Assembly: GCA_029245345.1 (NCBI GenBank)
Contig: JAQWPM010000019.1
Coordinates: 1-64,000 of the forward strand
DNA length: 64,000 nucleotides
DNA from: Longimicrobiales bacterium
GTDB lineage: Bacteria; Gemmatimonadota; Gemmatimonadetes; Longimicrobiales; Gaopeijiaceae
Reading direction: 5' to 3'
Shown here: piece after piece, positions 48,406 through 63,960 of the stretch
How positions within the stretch are numbered: position 1 is the stretch's first letter
Layout: each line of letters opens with the position of its first letter
Translations under genes and position numbers: made by a program
Notes under the pieces: model-generated
Told to the model about the DNA's origin: nothing
Database searches by the model: none
Seen by the model: the letters and a program-made list of their open reading frames with translations, nothing else

Positions 48406-48421
48406 CGAACGAGGACGGGCG

Positions 48422-49540
48422 ATGAAGATCCTGGTCGCGAACTGGCTGGACCGGGAGAACCCGCAGGCTGGCGGTGCTGAAGAGCACTTGCACCAGATCT
48501 TCGGGCGACTCGTTGCACGAGGTCATGACGTGACCCTCCTTTGCTCCGGCTGGAAGGGCTGCAGGCAGAGGACCGTGCTGGACGGCATTCAGGTTCATCG
48601 CTCCGGGGCGCGCTACACCTTCTCCCTAACCGGGCCCCGGTACTTCAAACGGCACCTCGCCCGCAACGATTTCGACGTGGTCGTCGAAGACCTCAACAAG
48701 GTCCCGCTTTTCACCCCCTACTGGACCGACGCTCCAGTCGTGCCGCTCGTTCACCACCTGTTCGGGACGACCGCCTTTCAGGAAGCTTCGTTCCCGCTCG
48801 CTGCTGCGACGTGGCTCCTGGAGCGCACCATCCCACAGGTCTTCAAAGGGATGCCGAGTATCGCGGTGTCCGAGAGTACGAAAGCGGACTTGATCGGGCG
48901 GGGACTCAAAACCGACATCGAAGTGATCACCAACGGGATCGATCTGGAGAAGTACTTTCCGGCTCCGCCCGCCCAGAAGGCGGCGGATCCCACGTTGCTG
49001 TATTTGGGCCGAGTGAAGAAGTACAAGGGCATCGACCTGTTGTTGCGCGCAGTCGCTCGCCTTGAGGAGGAAGGCCTCCGCCTGCGCTTCAAGGTCGCGG
49101 GTACGGGTGATGCGCGTGCCTCGCTCGAGGCTCTCGCGGTGGGACTGAACATACAAGACCGAGTGGATTTCCTCGGCTTCGTCGACGAAGAAACAAAACT
49201 CGAGCTCCTGCGGACTTCCTGGGTGCATGGCCTGACGTCGCCCAAGGAAGGGTGGGGAATCGCCAATTTGGAGGCCGCCGGATGTGGCACGCCCGCAGTG
49301 TCGAGTGATTCGCCCGGACTCAGAGAATCCGTCGTTCATGAACGCACGGGGCTGCTCGTCCCACACGGTGATATTGGTGCGCTGGCAGAAGCTCTGGGGC
49401 GCCTCGTGAGGGAGCCCGGCCTGCGCGCGGAGATGGGCCGTGCGGCCCGTGCCTTTGCCGAGTCATTCTCGTGGGATGCTTCAACGGAGGCCACCGAACG
49501 CTTCCTCACGCGGGTGGTCGGCAACTCACAGCCCGGCTAA
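48422..49540 (+). CDS. family 4 glycosyltransferase
   Basis: 372 residues from the ATG at 48422. The N-terminal GT-B half has NWLDRENPQAGGAEEHLHQI (the acceptor-side glycine loop). The C-terminal half has LLYLGRVKKYKGIDLLLRAV, FKVAGTGDARASLEALAVGL and the E-x7-E motif SPKEGWGIANLEAAGCGTPA, typical of GT4 retaining enzymes. It transfers a sugar from a nucleotide or phospho donor to an unknown acceptor, perhaps a lipid or exopolysaccharide. No other glycan genes are nearby, so the pathway is open. A T-run (TTTTTT, 49543-49548) follows its stop. Confidence 0.9.
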   Translation: MKILVANWLDRENPQAGGAEEHLHQIFGRLVARGHDVTLLCSGWKGCRQRTVLDGIQVHRSGARYTFSLTGPRYFKRHLARNDFDVVVEDLNKVPLFTPYWTDAPVVPLVHHLFGTTAFQEASFPLAAATWLLERTIPQVFKGMPSIAVSESTKADLIGRGLKTDIEVITNGIDLEKYFPAPPAQKAADPTLLYLGRVKKYKGIDLLLRAVARLEEEGLRLRFKVAGTGDARASLEALAVGLNIQDRVDFLGFVDEETKLELLRTSWVHGLTSPKEGWGIANLEAAGCGTPAVSSDSPGLRESVVHERTGLLVPHGDIGALAEALGRLVREPGLRAEMGRAARAFAESFSWDASTEATERFLTRVVGNSQPG

Positions 49541-49586: not shown

Positions 49587-49931
49587 TTGAGAGTTCAGAT
49601 CGCTCAGCGACACTGCGATGTTACCGATGACGTTCTCCAACGGACCGAAGACTTGGTCCAAAAGCTCAACAAATATGAGCCCCACGTTGGCACCGCCGAG
49701 GTGGTATACAGCGAAGAGAAGCACACCAAGCACATTGAAGTAATTCTCCATATCGACGGAGCCGCCCCGATCGTCGCCAGGGCTGAAGAGAGGGAGTTTC
49801 GCTCAGCTCTCGATAGGGTCCTCGACAAATTGACCCGGATGCTCAAAAAGCAGCGGGGACGCCGGACCGATCACCGAGCCCCGAAACTGTCCGAGGTGTC
49901 GACAGATCTCTCGGAAGCGTCGACTGAATAG
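49587..49931 (+). CDS. hpf: short-form ribosome hibernation promoting factor (HPF/RaiA)
   Basis: 114 residues from a TTG at 49587, with GGAGG at 8 nt. A longer frame upstream overlaps the glycosyltransferase. The fold is seen in RVQIAQRHCDVTDDVLQRTE, AEVVYSEEKHTKHIEVILHI and the basic helix ALDRVLDKLTRMLKKQRGRR, which contacts 16S rRNA in HPF. The short Ser/Glu tail (LSEVSTDLSEASTE) is not the long-HPF dimer domain. It stabilises inactive ribosomes in slow growth. The neighbouring hprK and PTS genes echo the proteobacterial rpoN-hpf-ptsN cluster. Confidence 0.9.
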   Translation: MRVQIAQRHCDVTDDVLQRTEDLVQKLNKYEPHVGTAEVVYSEEKHTKHIEVILHIDGAAPIVARAEEREFRSALDRVLDKLTRMLKKQRGRRTDHRAPKLSEVSTDLSEASTE

Positions 49932-49981
49932 ACTGATGAGTATCGGTTCCGGATCGCATAGCCTGTGAGGACTTCCTGAGC

Positions 49982-50920
49982 TTGAACAGTGTAGGAATCG
50001 GAGACATCCTCGAAGCCAAGAGCCAGACGCTCGGCCTTGAGGTGTTGACCCCAGATGTGTCCCTGGACCGCGCCGCTTCTGATCCGGACATCACCTCGCC
50101 CGGATTGGCCCTCGCGGGACACACAACCCGGACTCCATTCGGTCGAATGTGGGTCTTCGGTGAGACTGAGATGACGTACCTCGAGGGACTCGACGAGGCC
50201 GAGGCTCGGTCGCGGTTGCGCGACCTGTTCGCCTTCGACGTCCCCGCCGTGTTCATCACCAAGGGACAGGTGGTGCCTGAGTATTTCATCGAGGAAGCGC
50301 AGAACGCCGACGTGCCGGTACTTCGATCCAGTGAGAGCACGAAGTACTTCTATGAGCGGATAAAGTCGTTCCTCGAACGGGGGATGGCACCGCAGACGAC
50401 ACTCCACGGCTCCCTCGCAGACGTTTACGGCGTGGGCCTGCTCTTCGTGGGAGAGAGTGGCGTCGGGAAGTCCGAGTGTGTCCTTGATCTTGTGGAGCGG
50501 GGCCACCGACTGGTCGCGGATGACCTGGTCCTTGTCACGAAGCAAGGAAACGACGTCCTCATCGGTCGTGGGCACGAACTGCAAAAGCACCACATGGAGA
50601 TCCGGGGGGTCGGGATCATCGATATCTCGGCGATGTTCGGTGTCCGGGCGATCCGGCAACAGAAGCGGATCGAGGTCATCGTCTATCTCGAAGACTGGAA
50701 CCAGGAGGGCAACTACTCGCGGACCGGACTGGAAGAGGAGTTCGAGGACATTCTCGGGATTCAGATACCGAAAGTCACGGTGCCTCTGAATCCCGGAAAA
50801 AATATTACGGTGATCGCCGAAGTGATCGCTATGGATCATCTCTTGAAGTACTCCGGCGTCCACTCAGCCCGACGTTTCGACGAAAAGATCCGTCAGTACC
50901 TGGAGCAGGATTATGAGTGA
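49982..50920 (+). CDS. hprK: HPr kinase/phosphorylase
   Basis: 312 residues from a TTG at 49982. The N-terminal domain (residues 1-130) binds substrate or dimerises; the catalytic part has Walker A GLLFVGESGVGKSECVLDLV, then HRLVADDLVLVTKQGND and the HprK signature MEIRGVGIIDISAMFGVRAI. A C-terminal KNITVIAEVIAMDHLLKYSG matches the family end. It phosphorylates or dephosphorylates a regulatory Ser on HPr. The HPr gene 2.3 kb downstream has that Ser (GKSIMG), so the pair is likely functional. It overlaps the IIA gene by 8 nt. Confidence 0.95.
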   Translation: MNSVGIGDILEAKSQTLGLEVLTPDVSLDRAASDPDITSPGLALAGHTTRTPFGRMWVFGETEMTYLEGLDEAEARSRLRDLFAFDVPAVFITKGQVVPEYFIEEAQNADVPVLRSSESTKYFYERIKSFLERGMAPQTTLHGSLADVYGVGLLFVGESGVGKSECVLDLVERGHRLVADDLVLVTKQGNDVLIGRGHELQKHHMEIRGVGIIDISAMFGVRAIRQQKRIEVIVYLEDWNQEGNYSRTGLEEEFEDILGIQIPKVTVPLNPGKNITVIAEVIAMDHLLKYSGVHSARRFDEKIRQYLEQDYE

Positions 50921-51299
50921 AGGCGCCGCCATCGGAGTCGTGGTAGCTCATGGCGCTATGGCCGAAGGATTGGTTTCCGCGGCCAAGAAGATCGCTGGAG
51001 CTCCCGCCGAGGCGTTGATCGCCCTTTCCAACGATGGCAAGAGCCCAGTCGAGCTCCGAGCGGAATTGGACTCTTTGGCTGGAAACAATCGAGCGGTGGT
51101 CTTCGTGGACCTTCAGTCCGGAAGCTGTGGCATGGCAGCTTTGTCCTGTTGTAAAGATTCGGTCCGGCGTGTCGTAATCTGCGGCGTCAATCTCCCGATG
51201 ATTCTCGACTTCGTATTCCATAGCGAGGAGCCGCTTCCTGATATCGTGGCGAGAGCCGTGGAAAAGGGCCAAGCCGCGATCGCGCCGGTCGGCAGCTAG
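50913..51299 (+). CDS. mannose-family PTS IIA component
   Basis: 128 residues from the ATG at 50913 overlapping hprK. The phosphoryl-accepting His is in GVVVAHGAMAEGLVSAAKKI, near residue 13, matching EIIA-Man. The core continues VVFVDLQSGSCGMAALSCCK and VVICGVNLPMILDFVFHSEE. It takes a phosphoryl group from HPr and passes it to the IIB encoded next. The fold is the EIIA-Man/DhaM type rather than PtsN-like. The adjoining IIB, IIC and IID genes support a complete permease. Confidence 0.92.
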   Translation: MSEGAAIGVVVAHGAMAEGLVSAAKKIAGAPAEALIALSNDGKSPVELRAELDSLAGNNRAVVFVDLQSGSCGMAALSCCKDSVRRVVICGVNLPMILDFVFHSEEPLPDIVARAVEKGQAAIAPVGS

Positions 51300-51313
51300 T
51301 ATGGGTTCACCGC

Positions 51314-51793
51314 TTGTCGATTGAACTGTTTCGGGTCGACGAACGACTGATCCACGGTCAGGTCGTCATAGGCTGGGGGCACCAGGTCCGCCCGGATCGA
51401 TACGTCGTTGTCGACGACGAACTCGCGTCGAGTGAATGGGAACAGGATCTATATCGGCTTGGAGCCGGTACGGCCGACATCCTCTTTGTGGACACAGCGG
51501 GCGCGGTGTCCCGGATCGCCGAGTGGTGTGACGACGAGCCGAGGACGATCCTGCTGACCCGCGACGTCACAACGATGTGCCGGCTCGGGGACAGTGGAGC
51601 ACTTCGCGACCAGTCCGTGAACCTCGGGGGGATTCATCACGGCCCCGGTCGTCGCGAAGTGCTCACCTATCTGCACCTCACAGAAGCGGAGATGGATGAC
51701 CTGAGAGCCCTTGAGGCTGGGGGCGCGAAGGTTACCGCCCGCGATCTTCCAGACGCACGCGAGGCCCCCCTCTCTCAGCTTGTGGGCCGGTAG
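51314..51793 (+). CDS. mannose/sorbose-family PTS IIB component
   Basis: 159 residues from a TTG at 51314, 14 nt after the IIA stop. The signature IELFRVDERLIHGQVVIGWG contains the phosphorylated His of the family (RLIHGQ). The rest fits IIB-Sor: RPDRYVVVDDELASSEWEQD, ILFVDTAGAVSRIAEW and NLGGIHHGPGRREVLTYLHL. It relays phosphate from IIA to the sugar at IIC/IID. It abuts the IIC gene. Confidence 0.92.
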   Translation: MSIELFRVDERLIHGQVVIGWGHQVRPDRYVVVDDELASSEWEQDLYRLGAGTADILFVDTAGAVSRIAEWCDDEPRTILLTRDVTTMCRLGDSGALRDQSVNLGGIHHGPGRREVLTYLHLTEAEMDDLRALEAGGAKVTARDLPDAREAPLSQLVGR

Positions 51794-52453
51794 GTGGAAC
51801 TCCTCTACATCGGGCTGCTAGGAGGCCTCCTAGCACTTGATACGACGTCCGTCGGGCAGTTCATGTTTTCGCGCCCGTTGGTGGCAGGGGCCGTCACAGG
51901 TTGGGTACTGGGCGACCTCTCGCTCGGCTTGACGATCGGCGTCGTCCTCGAGACCTACATGCTCGTTTCCTTTCCTAGCGGGGGCGCTCGGTTCCCGGAT
52001 GGAACCACCGCCACTGTCGTCGCAGTCGCAGCCGCGTCGGTGGTGCCCAGCGCGGGAGCTTTGCCGTTGGCGGTCGGAGCAGGCCTTTTTTGGGGCCAGG
52101 TCGGCGGATGGTCGGTAACGACGCTCCGGAAACTGAACGGGCGTCTCGTTCCGGAGTCCTCAGATCCATCTGTGACCGTCCGTAGGGTAACCCTCGTTCA
52201 GTTGAGTAGTGTGCTCTTGGACTTCCTCCGAGGGGTGATTGTGACCGTCGTGGGAGCGGGCCTCGGACGGTTGGTCGTCTCTGCTTTGGCCGACTCGTGG
52301 CCCCTCGCAGAAGCTCCGTCCCTGGGACTTCTAGTTGTCGGTGGCGCGGTCTCGGTAGGCATCTTACTTCACGACCTGGGCGGCTTTCGCAAGCGCCGCG
52401 TGTTGTTCGTCGCTGGGCTCGCGCTGGGCATCATCGGGGCGCGCTTTTTATGA
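51794..52453 (+). CDS. mannose/sorbose-family PTS IIC membrane component
   Basis: 219 residues from a GTG immediately after the IIB stop. Hydrophobic throughout with about six helices, and family motifs LLGGLLALDTTSVGQFMFSR, PLVAGAVTGWVLGDLSLGLT and SFPSGGARFPDGTTATVVAV. It is shorter than E. coli ManY (about 266). It forms the sugar channel with IID. Overlap with the IID gene is ATGA. Confidence 0.88.
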   Translation: MELLYIGLLGGLLALDTTSVGQFMFSRPLVAGAVTGWVLGDLSLGLTIGVVLETYMLVSFPSGGARFPDGTTATVVAVAAASVVPSAGALPLAVGAGLFWGQVGGWSVTTLRKLNGRLVPESSDPSVTVRRVTLVQLSSVLLDFLRGVIVTVVGAGLGRLVVSALADSWPLAEAPSLGLLVVGGAVSVGILLHDLGGFRKRRVLFVAGLALGIIGARFL

Positions 52454-53202
52454 GCCCTCCGCTGACCCGCTCCACTGTGATCTCGGCCTTCTTGCGGTCC
52501 TTTTTGATCCAGGGATCGTGGAACTACCGCACCATGATCGGGAATGGCTTCGCCTTTGCGATGCTGCCGGCGCTGAAGCGGATGTTCGGGGACGACCCAG
52601 AGGCGTTGGACGCGTCGCTACGACGCCATGTGAACCATTTTAATGTGCATCCTTACCTATCCGGGCTGGCATTAGGTGCCGCGCTCCGACTCGAAGCTGA
52701 TGGCACCGACGCGGAAACAGTGACGCGGTTCAAGATGGCCATACGCGGCCCCTTGGGAGGCCTGGGGGACGCCTTGGTCTGGGCAACCTGGCTGCCCGCT
52801 GTATCGATGCTTGCCTTGGCCCTGTGGTGGGTCGGAACGCCGGACTGGATGACGGTGGTCTTCTTCTTAGTGCTTTACAACGCGGGGCACCTGGCCTTAC
52901 GAGTGTGGGGCTTCCGCAGCGGTCTCCGAGAGGGTCGTGAGGTGGCGCAGGCGTTGACCCGCGCCAATCTCGTCAACATCCACGATCGCTTACGAGAAGC
53001 GGCGACAGTGATGATCGGACTCCTTGTCGGGGTCGCCTTGGCGAGCCCGACGGGGCTCGTACACACTGGACTGCCTTGGGCTGCCCTGGGGATGCTAGCC
53101 TTCGTCGTCGGACTCAAGATCGGTCATCGGATCTGGAGGCCCACGGCAATCGCGGTGGTAACCGCCATCGCGAGCCTTTCCACTTGGGGAATTGTGACGT
53201 GA
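52450..53202 (+). CDS. mannose-family PTS IID membrane component
   Basis: 250 residues from the ATG at 52450. The N-terminal LRSFLIQGSWNYRTMIGNGF, the conserved FNVHPYLSGLALGAALRLE and MAIRGPLGGLGDALVWATWL match IID-Man, and the C-terminal region holds several transmembrane helices. It is slightly shorter than typical IID (about 280). IID partners IIC in substrate passage. Its TGA overlaps the GTG of ptsH. Confidence 0.9.
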   Translation: MSPPLTRSTVISAFLRSFLIQGSWNYRTMIGNGFAFAMLPALKRMFGDDPEALDASLRRHVNHFNVHPYLSGLALGAALRLEADGTDAETVTRFKMAIRGPLGGLGDALVWATWLPAVSMLALALWWVGTPDWMTVVFFLVLYNAGHLALRVWGFRSGLREGREVAQALTRANLVNIHDRLREAATVMIGLLVGVALASPTGLVHTGLPWAALGMLAFVVGLKIGHRIWRPTAIAVVTAIASLSTWGIVT

Positions 53203-53480
53203 CCGAACAGGCACGGATAGAAGAGGAGGTCCAGATCGTGAACCGGGCCGGAATGCACGCGCGCCCGGCCGCTGAATTTGTGAAGCTCGCCGGGGGGTTT
53301 GCCGCGAACGTGACCATCGAGAAGGACGGCTTGGAAGTGAACGGAAAGAGCATCATGGGTGTTCTCATGCTTGCCGCAGAGCAGGGGAGTACGCTCAAGC
53401 TTACCGCCAGTGGTGAGGACGCCGAGGCGGCTGTGGAAGCTCTCGCGGACCTCGTGAAGCGGGGCTTCGAGGAAAACTGA
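53199..53480 (+). CDS. ptsH: phosphocarrier protein HPr
   Basis: 93 residues from a GTG in a GTGA overlap with IID. An upstream frame lies in IID. The active-site His is in VNRAGMHARPAAEFVKLAGG. The regulatory Ser is in NGKSIMGVLMLAAEQGSTLK, the target of HprK. It carries phosphate from Enzyme I to IIA. Both phosphorylation sites are intact. It overlaps ptsI by one base. Confidence 0.95.
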   Translation: MTEQARIEEEVQIVNRAGMHARPAAEFVKLAGGFAANVTIEKDGLEVNGKSIMGVLMLAAEQGSTLKLTASGEDAEAAVEALADLVKRGFEEN

Positions 53481-55258
53481 TGCCCACGATTCTCGACGGA
53501 CTTCCTGCCTCCGAGGGCATCGCCTCTGGCAAGGTGTTCTTGCTGGACTGGGGTGTCCCAGTCGTTCCCCACCGCTCCATTAAGTCGGAGGAGGCCAAGG
53601 CCGAGGTGGCTCGGTTCCAAGAGGCCCGCGATTGGGCGCGGGAACGCCTGAGCGAGATTATGGCCCGTACCGAGGAACGGCTGGGTACGGTAGAGGCTCG
53701 CATCTTCGAGCCACAGATCCTCATGCTCGACGACCCTGCGGTCGTAGACGGTACGGTCCGCTACATCGAGGAGAACAACCTCTCGGCAGAGCGAGCCTTC
53801 GAGTGGCGCATGCTGGAGCTGAAGGCGATGTGGGCCAGGACGTCACATCCCATGGTGTTGGATCGCCTAAACGATCTTGAAGACTTGATGATCAGAGTTC
53901 TCCATAGGCTCTTGGGACATCATGATCCGACCGATCTGGCCCTGGCTGAGGAAGGCGTGATCATCGTGGCGCCTAACCTGACGCCGAGCCTCACGGTCCA
54001 TCTCGACGCCCTGAAGGTTCGTGGGGTCGCAACAGAACAGGGCACTCGGACCGCGCATTGGGCGATCCTGGCCCGGTCGCTCCAGATCCCGGCAATTGTA
54101 GGCGTCGACGGCATTTCCAAGAAGGCGCGCGAGGGACAGGATGCGATCGTGGATGGGCGATTCGGACGAATCGTGCTCGACCCCGACGGAAGCGACGTCA
54201 CGCGCTTCGAAACGCGCCGTGAGCGCCTGAGAGAATGGGAAGGGGAGATCGCGACGATCGCCGAACTGGATTCCGTCACAAAGGACGGCCAGTTCGTCGA
54301 GCTACGTGCGAACTTGGATCAGCCCGAAGAAGGAGAACAGGCGCGGCTTCACGGGGCACACGGTGTGGGGCTCTTTCGCACGGAATTCCTCGTGGTGGGA
54401 CGTAACACGATGCCCACCGAGGAGGAGCAGTTCGAGGCCTACAAGAAGGTCGCCGAGGCATTCCCCAATAAGGCCGTATACATCCGCACCTTCGACCTGG
54501 GCGGGGACAAATTTCCGATGTTCCTTCACATGCCTCAGGAGGAGAACCCATTCCTCGGGTGGCGAGCGATAAGGGTTTGTTTGGATGAGCCTGAGCTCTT
54601 TCGGACGCAACTACGTGCGCTGCTCCGAGCGACGGCGTTCGGAGACATGCGCATGATGCTCCCTCTCGTGAACGAAGTGGACGAGATCCGCCGGACCCGT
54701 GAGATGGTGCAGGAAGAGGCTGCGAAGCTGGACAAGGAGGGCATCGAGTACAACAAGGGCTACAAGCTGGGGGTGATGATCGAAACGCCAGCCGCTGCGC
54801 TCGAAGCCGCCGAACTCGCTCGCCATGCCGACTTCTTTTCGATCGGGACCAACGACTTGGTCCAATACACACTGGCGGTGGACCGCACGAACACCCGCCT
54901 CGCGAAGCTGTACAACCCGTTCCATCCGGCCGTCCTTCGGCAGATCCAGTTGGTGGCTCGAGCCGGCCGCGCAGCCGGTATCGAGGTGAGCGTATGCGGC
55001 GAACTCGCCGCGAACCCTCTCGCCGCCTTTCTCCTCTTAGGGTTGGACATCACGGCTCTCTCTATGGCGTGGCCGTCCCTCCCTGAGATCAAGAAATTCA
55101 TCCGCGACATTCGTATTTCGGACGCGCGCGACGCCGCCAAAAAGGCGTTGGCTGCCTCGGACAGTCGTGGGGTCACCCGAGCCCTCGCTGAAGGCATAGG
55201 GGACTCCGTCGACCTCAAGCTTTTTCAGGGTCGCTGGAGCTTGTCGGTCCCGGATTGA
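53480..55258 (+). CDS. ptsI: PTS Enzyme I (phosphoenolpyruvate-protein phosphotransferase)
   Basis: 592 residues from the ATG at 53480. The N-terminal swivel domain has [20 protein letters not shown] and the active-site segment [20 protein letters not shown] with the phosphorylated His (usual form GGRTSHSAI). The PEP-binding barrel includes [91 protein letters not shown] and [20 protein letters not shown]. It starts the phosphorelay from PEP. It is the last gene of the hpf-hprK-PTS run. Confidence 0.96.
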
Positions 55259-55319: not shown

Positions 55320-56498
55320 TTGAGTCGCACACTCTTTACTTCAGAGTCCGTCACCGAAGGTCACCCGGACAAGATCGCAGACCAGATTTCGGATGCCGTC
55401 CTCGATCATCTCCTTGCCAAAGATCCCAACTCGCGGGTGGCATGTGAGACGTTGGTGACGACCGGACTCGCCTTTGTTGCGGGTGAAGTCACCACCGATT
55501 GTTATGTGCACATTCCGGATGTGGTGCGTGGTACGCTGGCTCGGATCGGCTATACGAATGCGATGTACGGAATCGACTCGAATACGTGCGCGGTTCTGAC
55601 GAATCTGGACCAGCAGTCTGCCGATATCGCGATGGGCGTGGATACCGGAGGTGCAGGTGACCAGGGCATGATGTTCGGGTACGCCTCGAACGAGACACCC
55701 GAATTGATGCCGGCTACGATCCAGTATGCCCATGCGCTCACGCATCGTTTGGCTGAAGTGCGTAAGTCGGGTGAGGTGCCTTGGCTCCGACCGGACGGAA
55801 AGAGCCAAGTCACGGTCGAATACGACGGCGACAAACCTGTTCGGGTTCACACCGTAGTGATCAGTGCTCAGCATCACGACGATGTGCACCAATCCGACAT
55901 CATCTCGACCCTGACGGAAAAGGTGGTTAAGCCGGTCATTCCGGCCGAGTTGTTCGACGAGGACTGCATCCTGCACATCAACCCGACGGGCCGGTTCGTG
56001 GTCGGCGGACCTCACGGTGATGCCGGCCTGACGGGCCGGAAGATCATCGTGGACACCTACGGTGGTGTGGGACGGCACGGAGGCGGAGCCTTCTCAGGAA
56101 AAGATGCGACCAAGGTGGACCGCTCGGCCGCCTACGCGTCACGTTGGGCCGCAAAGAACATCGTGGCTGCCGGGCTCGCGGACCGATGTGAAATTCAGCT
56201 CGCTTACGCGATCGGGGTCGCGGAGCCGGTGTCGATCCGGGTCAACACGTTCGGGACCGGAAAGGTCGAGGAAGCGGAACTGACTCGCGCACTACGAGAG
56301 GTCTTCGACTTCACGCCATCGGGCATCATCGATCGACTCGGCCTGCGATCGGCCATCTACACGCCCACGGCCGCCTACGGCCACTTCGGGCGCACGCCTG
56401 AGGTCCGAAAGCCTAGTGCGGGGGGTGACGAGGTCCAGTTCTTCTCTTGGGAGCTCACGGATCGAGTGGATGACCTCAAGAATGCGGTTGGTGCCTGA
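55320..56498 (+). CDS. metK: S-adenosylmethionine synthetase
   Basis: 392 residues from a TTG at 55320. Motifs are [20 protein letters not shown] (catalytic His), [80 protein letters not shown] and [20 protein letters not shown]. It makes SAM from methionine and ATP. Only 61 nt separate it from ptsI, and no SAM riboswitch fold is visible there. Confidence 0.97.
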
Positions 56499-61589: not shown

Positions 61590-61949
61590 ATGGCAGATCC
61601 CACCGATGACACCGAACCCCGAGTCGCGGTCGGGCACACCGGAGTACCGAAACTCCCAGACGCCTGGCCGACCGACACGGTCCTCGCGCGTGAGCGGCTC
61701 GCTGAAGCTGAGGCCAACCGTTCCAAGCAACTGACGTTGCTCCTCGTAGGGACCACACCCGCGGCCCTCCTTCCGGTACTCGCGGCCGTCTGGACTGACA
61801 ACAATGCGCTCGCCGTCGTTTTCGTCGTGGGCGCGATGATCATACAAACGGTACGCTGGCGGACCGCAGCCGGCATTGTAAACACGCTTGAAACGGAACT
61901 GGAGGACGCTCTCGTGGAGCAGGAGGGATCGCGTCTCCTGGAGAGCTAG
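61590..61949 (+). CDS. small two-helix membrane protein of unknown function
   Basis: 119 residues from the ATG at 61590. Residues 47-67 and 71-86 are hydrophobic (LTLLLVGTTPAALLPVLAAV and ALAVVFVVGAMIIQTV), connected by a short loop, with charged termini and a C-terminal acidic helix (TLETELEDALVEQEGSRLLE). No family was recognised. It is convergent with ptsN; the two stops share CTAG (61946-61949). Confidence 0.6.
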   Translation: MADPTDDTEPRVAVGHTGVPKLPDAWPTDTVLARERLAEAEANRSKQLTLLLVGTTPAALLPVLAAVWTDNNALAVVFVVGAMIIQTVRWRTAAGIVNTLETELEDALVEQEGSRLLES

Positions 61950-62398
61950 GGCGCCTTTTCGTCGAGCAGGGCCAAGAAGTCCTCAGGCTTCTCGAGTTCC
62001 TTCAGCATCGCCAGCACATCAGCGTCCTTCGCGAACTGTGCGATCTTGCCTAATACCGGCAAATACTGATTGGAGACTTCCAACGGCGGCGCGGCGATCA
62101 GGAAAAAGTTGTGCACCGGAGCGCTGTCGATGGCGTTAAAACCCATGCCCGCAGGCTTCCTGCCATAGGCCAGGCGGAGGCGACTTACGACGAGCGACCG
62201 GCAGTGGGGAATCGCAATCCCTTTGCCAATTCCCGTGGAGCCGAGATTCTCACGACGCTTGAGCGTCTTGAAGAGGATGCCCTCGGACTTTTCGTCGAGC
62301 CCCACGAGTGCCACCAATTCGCGGAGCAACTCGTCCTTGGATCCGGCCTCCAAGTCGAGCTTGACCGCATCGACTGTGAACAGCTCTTTCAACCTCAT
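61946..62398 (-). CDS. PtsN-like PTS IIA component (EIIA-Ntr/fructose type)
   Basis: 150 residues from the ATG at 62398. The fold is EIIA-Fru/Ntr, with the phosphoryl His in GSTGIGKGIAIPHCRS and later NFFLIAAPPLEVSNQYLPVL. Its usual role is regulatory, receiving phosphate from an HPr-type carrier and tuning potassium or nitrogen metabolism. It is separate from the main PTS cluster 7 kb away but would share HPr. It ends inside the stop of the convergent gene. Confidence 0.88.
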   Translation of the reverse strand: MRLKELFTVDAVKLDLEAGSKDELLRELVALVGLDEKSEGILFKTLKRRENLGSTGIGKGIAIPHCRSLVVSRLRLAYGRKPAGMGFNAIDSAPVHNFFLIAAPPLEVSNQYLPVLGKIAQFAKDADVLAMLKELEKPEDFLALLDEKAP

Positions 62399-63604: not shown

Positions 63605-63960
63605 GGGGGCGTCACGGTTTCGACGTGTTCGGTGAAGGTGGAGTAGCGTGCCGAGGTCTCGATCCTCGTAAATAATTCGGGAAAAATTCTAATTGCCAAC
63701 ACTGATATGGCATTGGCCGCTTAAGTAACCCTTAAGTAGCTCGTTTCCTGAGTCGCCCGCCCGAGGCGTCTCCTGAAGCGACGATAATTCGGGCTGGTCC
63801 CCCCGCTTTGCCACCGGGTGGGGGGCGAGATTTTAGGTGGCTGGCCGAGGGTCCGGTTGTTCGCTGGCCCCCCGAGGCGAGACTAATCAGCGCTCTACGC
63901 ACGTAGAAGCTTCTCGGGATCCGATCGCGGACGCGGGTTCGACTCCCGCCGCCTCCATCA
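63605..63960 (+). ncRNA. ssrA: tmRNA (transfer-messenger RNA)
   Basis: The 5' end GGGGGCGTCACGGTTTCGAC and the 3' end GGGTTCGACTCCCGCCGCCTCC form the tRNA-like acceptor (G1-C7 with the 3' CGCCTCC, one G-U) and T arm. The discriminator A is 63957 and CCA is not encoded (TCA follows), consistent with the presence of RNase Z. The tag frame ends at 63722-63724 (TAA) and encodes NNSGKILIANTDMALAA, with the exact resume codon uncertain (GTA at 63668 or AAT at 63671). The ALAA end is the normal proteolysis signal. It frees stalled ribosomes together with SmpB. Confidence 0.95.

Follow-up and report, generated by a model that had tools for sequence, protein, structure and literature searches.

A 64,000 nt stretch from a Longimicrobiales bacterium (GCA_029245345.1, contig JAQWPM010000019.1, forward strand), here called the window, carries a complete mannose-family phosphotransferase system (PTS) cluster next to the gene for an HPr kinase. 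The genome belongs to the phylum Gemmatimonadota. The original prediction of a complete set from hpf through hprK and the mannose PTS to HPr and Enzyme I (EI) at 49587-55258 was borne out, with all eight genes in the places assigned to them, on the same strand and in the order hpf, hprK, IIA, IIB, IIC, IID, HPr, EI:

49587..49931, plus strand: hpf, short HPF-RaiA ribosome hibernation factor (PF02482, Ribosomal_S30AE, 2e-13; TIGR00741 above cut-off)
49982..50920, plus strand: hprK, HPr(Ser) kinase/phosphorylase with N and C domains (TIGR00679, 342.9 bits against a cut-off of 240; Hpr_kinase_C 3e-63)
50913..51299, plus strand: mannose-family EIIA, acceptor His in HGAMAEG (PF03610, EIIA-man, 2.7e-11)
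51314..51793, plus strand: mannose/sorbose-family EIIB, acceptor His in ERLIHGQ (PF03830, PTSIIB_sorb, 7e-30; structure matches including 3eye and 3lfj)
51794..52453, plus strand: mannose-family EIIC, compact, 219 aa, GTG start (PF03609, EII-Sor, 3e-15)
52450..53202, plus strand: mannose-family EIID, compact, 250 aa (PF03613, EIID-AGA, 4e-41; ManZ 6k1h, E 2.5e-28)
53199..53480, plus strand: HPr, His in GMHARP, Ser in GKSIMGV (PF00381, PTS-HPr, 5e-31)
53480..55258, plus strand: Enzyme I of PtsI type, 592 aa, with its phospho-His motif, no GAF domain (TIGR01417, 549.6 bits against a cut-off of 341.7)

Because all eight proteins score above their Pfam cut-offs, chance resemblance is excluded. HprK and EI also exceed NCBIfam cut-offs of equivalog type. 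EI contains only the three PtsI domains (Pfam 2e-105 to 9e-21), and hpf begins with a TTG codon preceded by GGAGG. Description of the cluster as one overlapping run holds for four junctions (hprK/IIA, IIC/IID, IID/HPr, where the GTG start of HPr overlaps the IID stop, and HPr/EI) and IIB abuts IIC, but gaps of 50 bp between hpf and hprK and of 14 bp between IIA and IIB interrupt it. The overlapping and abutting junctions suggest translational coupling. Phospho-acceptor sites and kinase motifs, said to be visible, could indeed be read directly: HGAMAEG in IIA, ERLIHGQ in IIB (both kept across the displayed loci), GMHARP and NGKSIMGV in HPr, CGELAA, and in HprK the Walker A sequence GESGVGKS, ADD and MEIRG. 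HprK aligns over its full length with the solved structure 1ko7, and also with 1jb1; with its Walker A and signature intact, and with an HPr carrying the KSIMGV serine region, the pair has the features of HprK/P systems. Likewise the IIA, IIB, IIC and IID families are all represented, with phospho-His residues in IIA and IIB, as in EII-Man complexes.

Conservation of the cluster and its compact transporter

The window's genome assembly (3.79 Mb, 98% complete) holds a single copy each of EI, HPr, IIA-Man and IID. Across the phylum, IID was matched in 246 of 298 genomes, with one match each, and EI in 274 of 298. Comparison of 20 loci from nine families revealed a largely conserved block, ribD..ribBA-ribH-nusB-GT4-hpf-hprK-IIA-IIB-IIC-IID-HPr-EI-metK, with which further named loci agree; hpf falls under the detection level in some of the 20, and the rib/GT4 flank is missing from one locus of family f8 (L052). 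In the window the immediate neighbours are:

48410..49540, plus strand: GT4 glycosyltransferase, immediately upstream (PF00534, 9e-38; synteny)
55320..56498, plus strand: metK, downstream (synteny)

With few exceptions, loci of the class have a GT4 gene directly upstream of hpf or hprK. Linkage of hpf, hprK, HPr and EI to rpoN and LptB is the classical diderm arrangement, the sigma-54 cluster. This arrangement occurs in the other class of the phylum (family f11, L152, 7351-13759), where an LptB-like ABC protein, rpoN, hpf, hprK, HPr and EI follow one another, unlike the class Gemmatimonadetes, in which the relay lies beside rib/nusB and metK.

Ratios of non-synonymous to synonymous substitution rates (dN/dS) in same-genus pairs ranged from 0.12 to 0.22 for IIC and IID and from 0.00 to 0.17 for hprK, IIA, IIB, HPr and EI, low values indicating that the transporter is under purifying selection. 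AlphaFold2 models of IIC and IID (mean predicted local distance difference test scores of 85 and 83) match the ManYZ-type fold, with TMq of 0.68 and 0.65 for IIC and 0.67 and 0.69 for IID against 9wjr and 6k1h, respectively. Invariant residues of both proteins are kept, including the IID motifs QGSWN, FN.HP and GPL.G.GD, and IIC is without the C-terminal part of ManY. Local truncation of the two window genes was considered and ruled out, since the same compact length recurs in all 20 loci; sizes of complete genes phylum-wide are 214-228 aa for IIC and 244-262 aa for IID.

In its HPr serine region and its full-length HprK the cluster is similar to the Firmicutes type, as would be expected had a Firmicutes-type mannose operon been gained recently by horizontal transfer. 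In trees of IIC and IID, which are small but cluster pairs of the same family together, the Gemmatimonadota proteins nonetheless group with those of Elusimicrobia and Latescibacterota, and the Firmicutes and E. coli sequences fall elsewhere; synteny extends across nine families. On trees and synteny together we rejected transfer from Firmicutes, which we regard as hardly credible.

Stepwise loss of the transport part within one family

Within the family of the window, an EI match without an IID match was obtained for 21 genomes, of which 19 have readable loci; G227 and G276 were left out of the loss count because their loci are cut by contig ends. Eleven of the 19 retain hprK-IIA-HPr-EI (G053, G058, G059, G061, G064, G128, G139, G152, G174, G198, G248), seven retain hprK-HPr-EI (G017, G098, G153, G161, G193, G230, G240), and one (G067, L183) retains HPr-EI alone. 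No HprK was found elsewhere in the G067 genome, whose HPr retains the GKSIMG serine despite the absent kinase. All 19 reduced loci occupy the same syntenic slot ahead of metK and retain the His and Ser of HPr and the His of EI, and HprK is present with its motifs in 18. In G193 the HPr frame is broken and so is that of metK, probably through sequencing errors. For pairs without the transporter, dN/dS was 0.08-0.19 for hprK, HPr and EI. Parsimony on a tree of five flanking proteins, some deep nodes of which are weakly supported, places two losses of IIB, IIC and IID (IIBCD), one in the common ancestor of genera g2 and g17 and one in G230 inside g8, together with five changes in IIA. An apparent loss of the whole cluster in G227, of the same genus as the window, was discarded as an assembly gap, as the contig ends inside EI; G276 and G121 are similar cases.

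Loss of IIC and IID in relatives had been named beforehand as the observation that would point to a purely regulatory role. Such loss has occurred in 19 genomes, but these genomes keep the phosphorelay: the transport part is therefore separable from the relay and dispensable to it, which is not proof that the window's own cluster is purely regulatory. A single family thus holds the full set, loci without IIBCD, loci also without IIA, one without HprK, and, as described below, complete loss together with PtsN, making the series a clean comparative system for the role of the relay once sugar import is gone.

A PtsN-type EIIA lost together with EI

The prediction that no regulator is encoded alongside the cluster did not hold, for a further PTS gene sits 6.7 kb downstream of EI on the opposite strand:

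61946..62398, minus strand: PtsN-like EIIA (EIIA-Ntr type), 150 residues (PF00359, 4e-25; phospho-His motif GSTGIGKGIAIPHCRS, GIAIPH)

PtsN-type EIIA is the classical regulatory acceptor of phosphate from phosphorylated HPr (HPr~P), and by its family the protein in the window is a probable acceptor of the same kind. Using it as query, PtsN was matched in 271 of 298 genomes, and families f1, f2, f3 and f7 include many genomes that have the gene ~6-10 kb downstream on the opposite strand; it is syntenic with the cluster in much of the class. Comparison of the EI and PtsN match tables for the window's family found PtsN in 54 of 55 EI-positive genomes and in none of 18 EI-negative ones; the sole EI-positive genome without PtsN, G212, is an assembly of 830 contigs that is 88% complete. 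Joint loss of EI and PtsN has affected g5, g7, g9, g12, part of g8 (G154, G257, G278) and one g2 genome (G234), while other members of g2 and g8 retain both. Scattered as they are over several genera, these losses represent more than one event.

These patterns bear on the proposal that the cluster is purely a sugar importer, with HprK providing ordinary flux control and PtsN belonging to a separate system. A full transport set in one run, and the occurrence of IID in 246 genomes against EI in 274, are what an importer should display. The relay nevertheless persists without IIBCD in 19 genomes, the window's genome offers PtsN no second EI or HPr, and within the family EI loss is always accompanied by PtsN loss, making a role confined to import decidedly improbable. 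The cluster is also not classed as PTS-Ntr: a PtsN-type EIIA with its phospho-His (AIPH) is present, but EI is without the N-terminal GAF domain of EI-Ntr (PtsP). In the window, the rpoN linkage (lptB-rpoN-hpf) was not found beside the cluster.

The window's genome has several PF00359 EIIA domains, that of PtsN among them. Another locus (L197, G000:C18, frame ~1-2073) encodes a protein resembling amino-acid permeases whose C-terminal EIIA_2 domain keeps an ALPH motif. EIIA_2 matches also occur in similarly long frames (720-780 aa) of relatives, some of them without EI (G045, G078, G103).

Predicted wiring and comparison with known systems

We consider it likely, with a probability of roughly 0.7, that the cluster constitutes the single phosphoenolpyruvate (PEP) phosphorelay of the genome, with two outlets, sugar import and PtsN, and with HprK as a brake. 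The protein families are the basis for the direction of phosphate flow, for transport, for transfer to PtsN and for the action of HprK on the cluster's HPr; they would have PEP phosphorylate EI and EI in turn phosphorylate the HPr histidine. From HPr~P, one path would run through IIA-Man and IIB to the membrane complex of IIC and IID, with uptake and phosphorylation of one sugar; the other would lead to the PtsN-type EIIA, whose phosphorylation state could serve as a readout of sugar flux and of the PEP/pyruvate balance. Responding to ATP, phosphate or glycolytic intermediates, HprK would add the phosphate to the HPr serine or remove it, and so slow transfer through HPr. The dual role originally envisaged, sugar import coupled to sensing through HPr-Ser phosphorylation, thus fits the purifying selection and the intact HprK and HPr serine, but no sugar can be named.

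This reading must be tempered by several observations that weigh against it. The window's genome yielded no match to type I ManA or to the NagB/6PGL family, and bifunctional PGI/PMI gave only 20-bit matches, far under the cut-off. No sugar-specific catabolic enzyme is linked to the cluster, as had been noted from the outset. IIC is ~45 residues shorter than ManY and reads SFPSGGARFPD where ManY has WMNIGAAVAPD, Pro replacing the ManY Asn; being shorter and altered in this motif, it may have a different substrate site. The tie between PtsN and the relay consists of co-occurrence and proximity only; the two are not neighbours in family f5, and one genome outside the window's family (G002) has a PtsN ortholog without an EI match. 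Across the survey, type I ManA tracks clades (g2, g7, g8, g17) and not the presence of the transporter. Gene content gives mannose and amino sugars no support, yet does not exclude them.

The same evidence could be taken to mean that the window's IIBCD moves no sugar and that the relay serves signalling through PtsN, IIA and HprK only. In favour of such a purely regulatory relay are the 19 relatives that hold the relay under selection without IIB, IIC or IID, the missing sugar enzymes (neither a linked one nor a ManA or NagB family member) and the compact IIC with its changed motif. By contrast, most of the phylum, with every sampled family represented, has intact IIB, IIC and IID genes on which purifying selection acts, and IIB keeps a phospho-His that would have no evident use without its IIC/IID partner; we judge this explanation unlikely. 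A doubtful further possibility is that the compact IIC-IID of Gemmatimonadota, Elusimicrobia and Latescibacterota is a separate branch of Man-PTS, acting mainly as a membrane sensor or taking an unusual substrate, which might couple the PtsN/HprK relay to a sugar outside the cell or in its envelope, IIBCD being dropped and the relay kept where that cue is irrelevant.

The arrangement of a single relay with a transport part has precedents in rpoN-linked mannose-class PTS clusters of deltaproteobacteria. A study of the Desulfovibrio vulgaris rpoN cluster proposed that the ancestral cluster, of mannose type, contained IIB, IIC and IID and that most proteobacterial lineages have since dropped them, leaving the regulatory PTS clusters (PMC2405797, 2008). 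In Pelobacter carbinolicus, Pcar_1929-1936 encode PtsI, PtsH, IID, IIC, IIB, IIA, a kinase and a second IIA, to which no sugar was assigned, and IIB, IIC and IID are absent from Geobacteraceae (PMC3543383). By locus number the P. carbinolicus genes run IIA-kinase-IIA-IIB-IIC-IID-PtsH-PtsI, so the order IIA-IIB-IIC-IID-HPr-EI is the same as in the window, which has the deltaproteobacterial-type complete Man-PTS (this order beside hprK and/or a RapZ-like kinase). The window differs in having hprK, missing in P. carbinolicus, in having neither rapZ nor rpoN in the cluster, in its position between rib/nusB/GT4/hpf and metK, and in the loss series within one family. The gene order is also shared by an Elusimicrobia locus (L143), hprK-rapZ-IIA-IIB-IIC-IID-HPr-EI, in which IIC (227 aa) and IID (253 aa) are likewise compact; it differs by the rapZ between hprK and IIA and by lacking the rib/metK context.

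Incomplete regulatory PTS occur in alphaproteobacteria such as Brucella, where a set without a transporter (EI-Ntr, NPr, EIIA-Ntr, EIIA-Man and HprK) forms a working relay in which HprK phosphorylates Ser (PMC2937029). Shared with the window are HprK, IIA-Man and PtsN-type acceptors on one relay, and the reduced hprK-IIA-HPr-EI loci of genus g2 closely resemble the Brucella set; the window retains IIB, IIC and IID, a PtsI-type EI without GAF and an HprK with an N-terminal domain. E. coli ManXYZ shares the IIA to IID families and the IID motifs (QGSWN, FN.HP/FN.QP, GPL.G.GD), but ManX is an IIAB fusion, ManY (266 aa) and ManZ (283 aa) are longer than the window's IIC and IID, the IIC motif differs, and no EI, HPr or HprK is linked. 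In open-access papers, with most subscription journals outside the search, no description of the cluster for Gemmatimonadota turned up. The cluster type is thus already known from deltaproteobacteria, and here it is complete, conserved and probably dual-purpose; what is new is its phylum-wide fixation, the loss series within one family and its co-loss with PtsN. The in-family series and the tie to PtsN make a split between transport and signalling testable, and bear on the 2008 proposal.

A scan for sigma-70 promoters found none (1.8 expected) and a repeat search gave pairs at chance-like level only. The only match in an Rfam scan was a tmRNA at 63605-63960, a gene near the end of the window (63605-63957, plus strand) that encodes the tag peptide ANTDMALAA.

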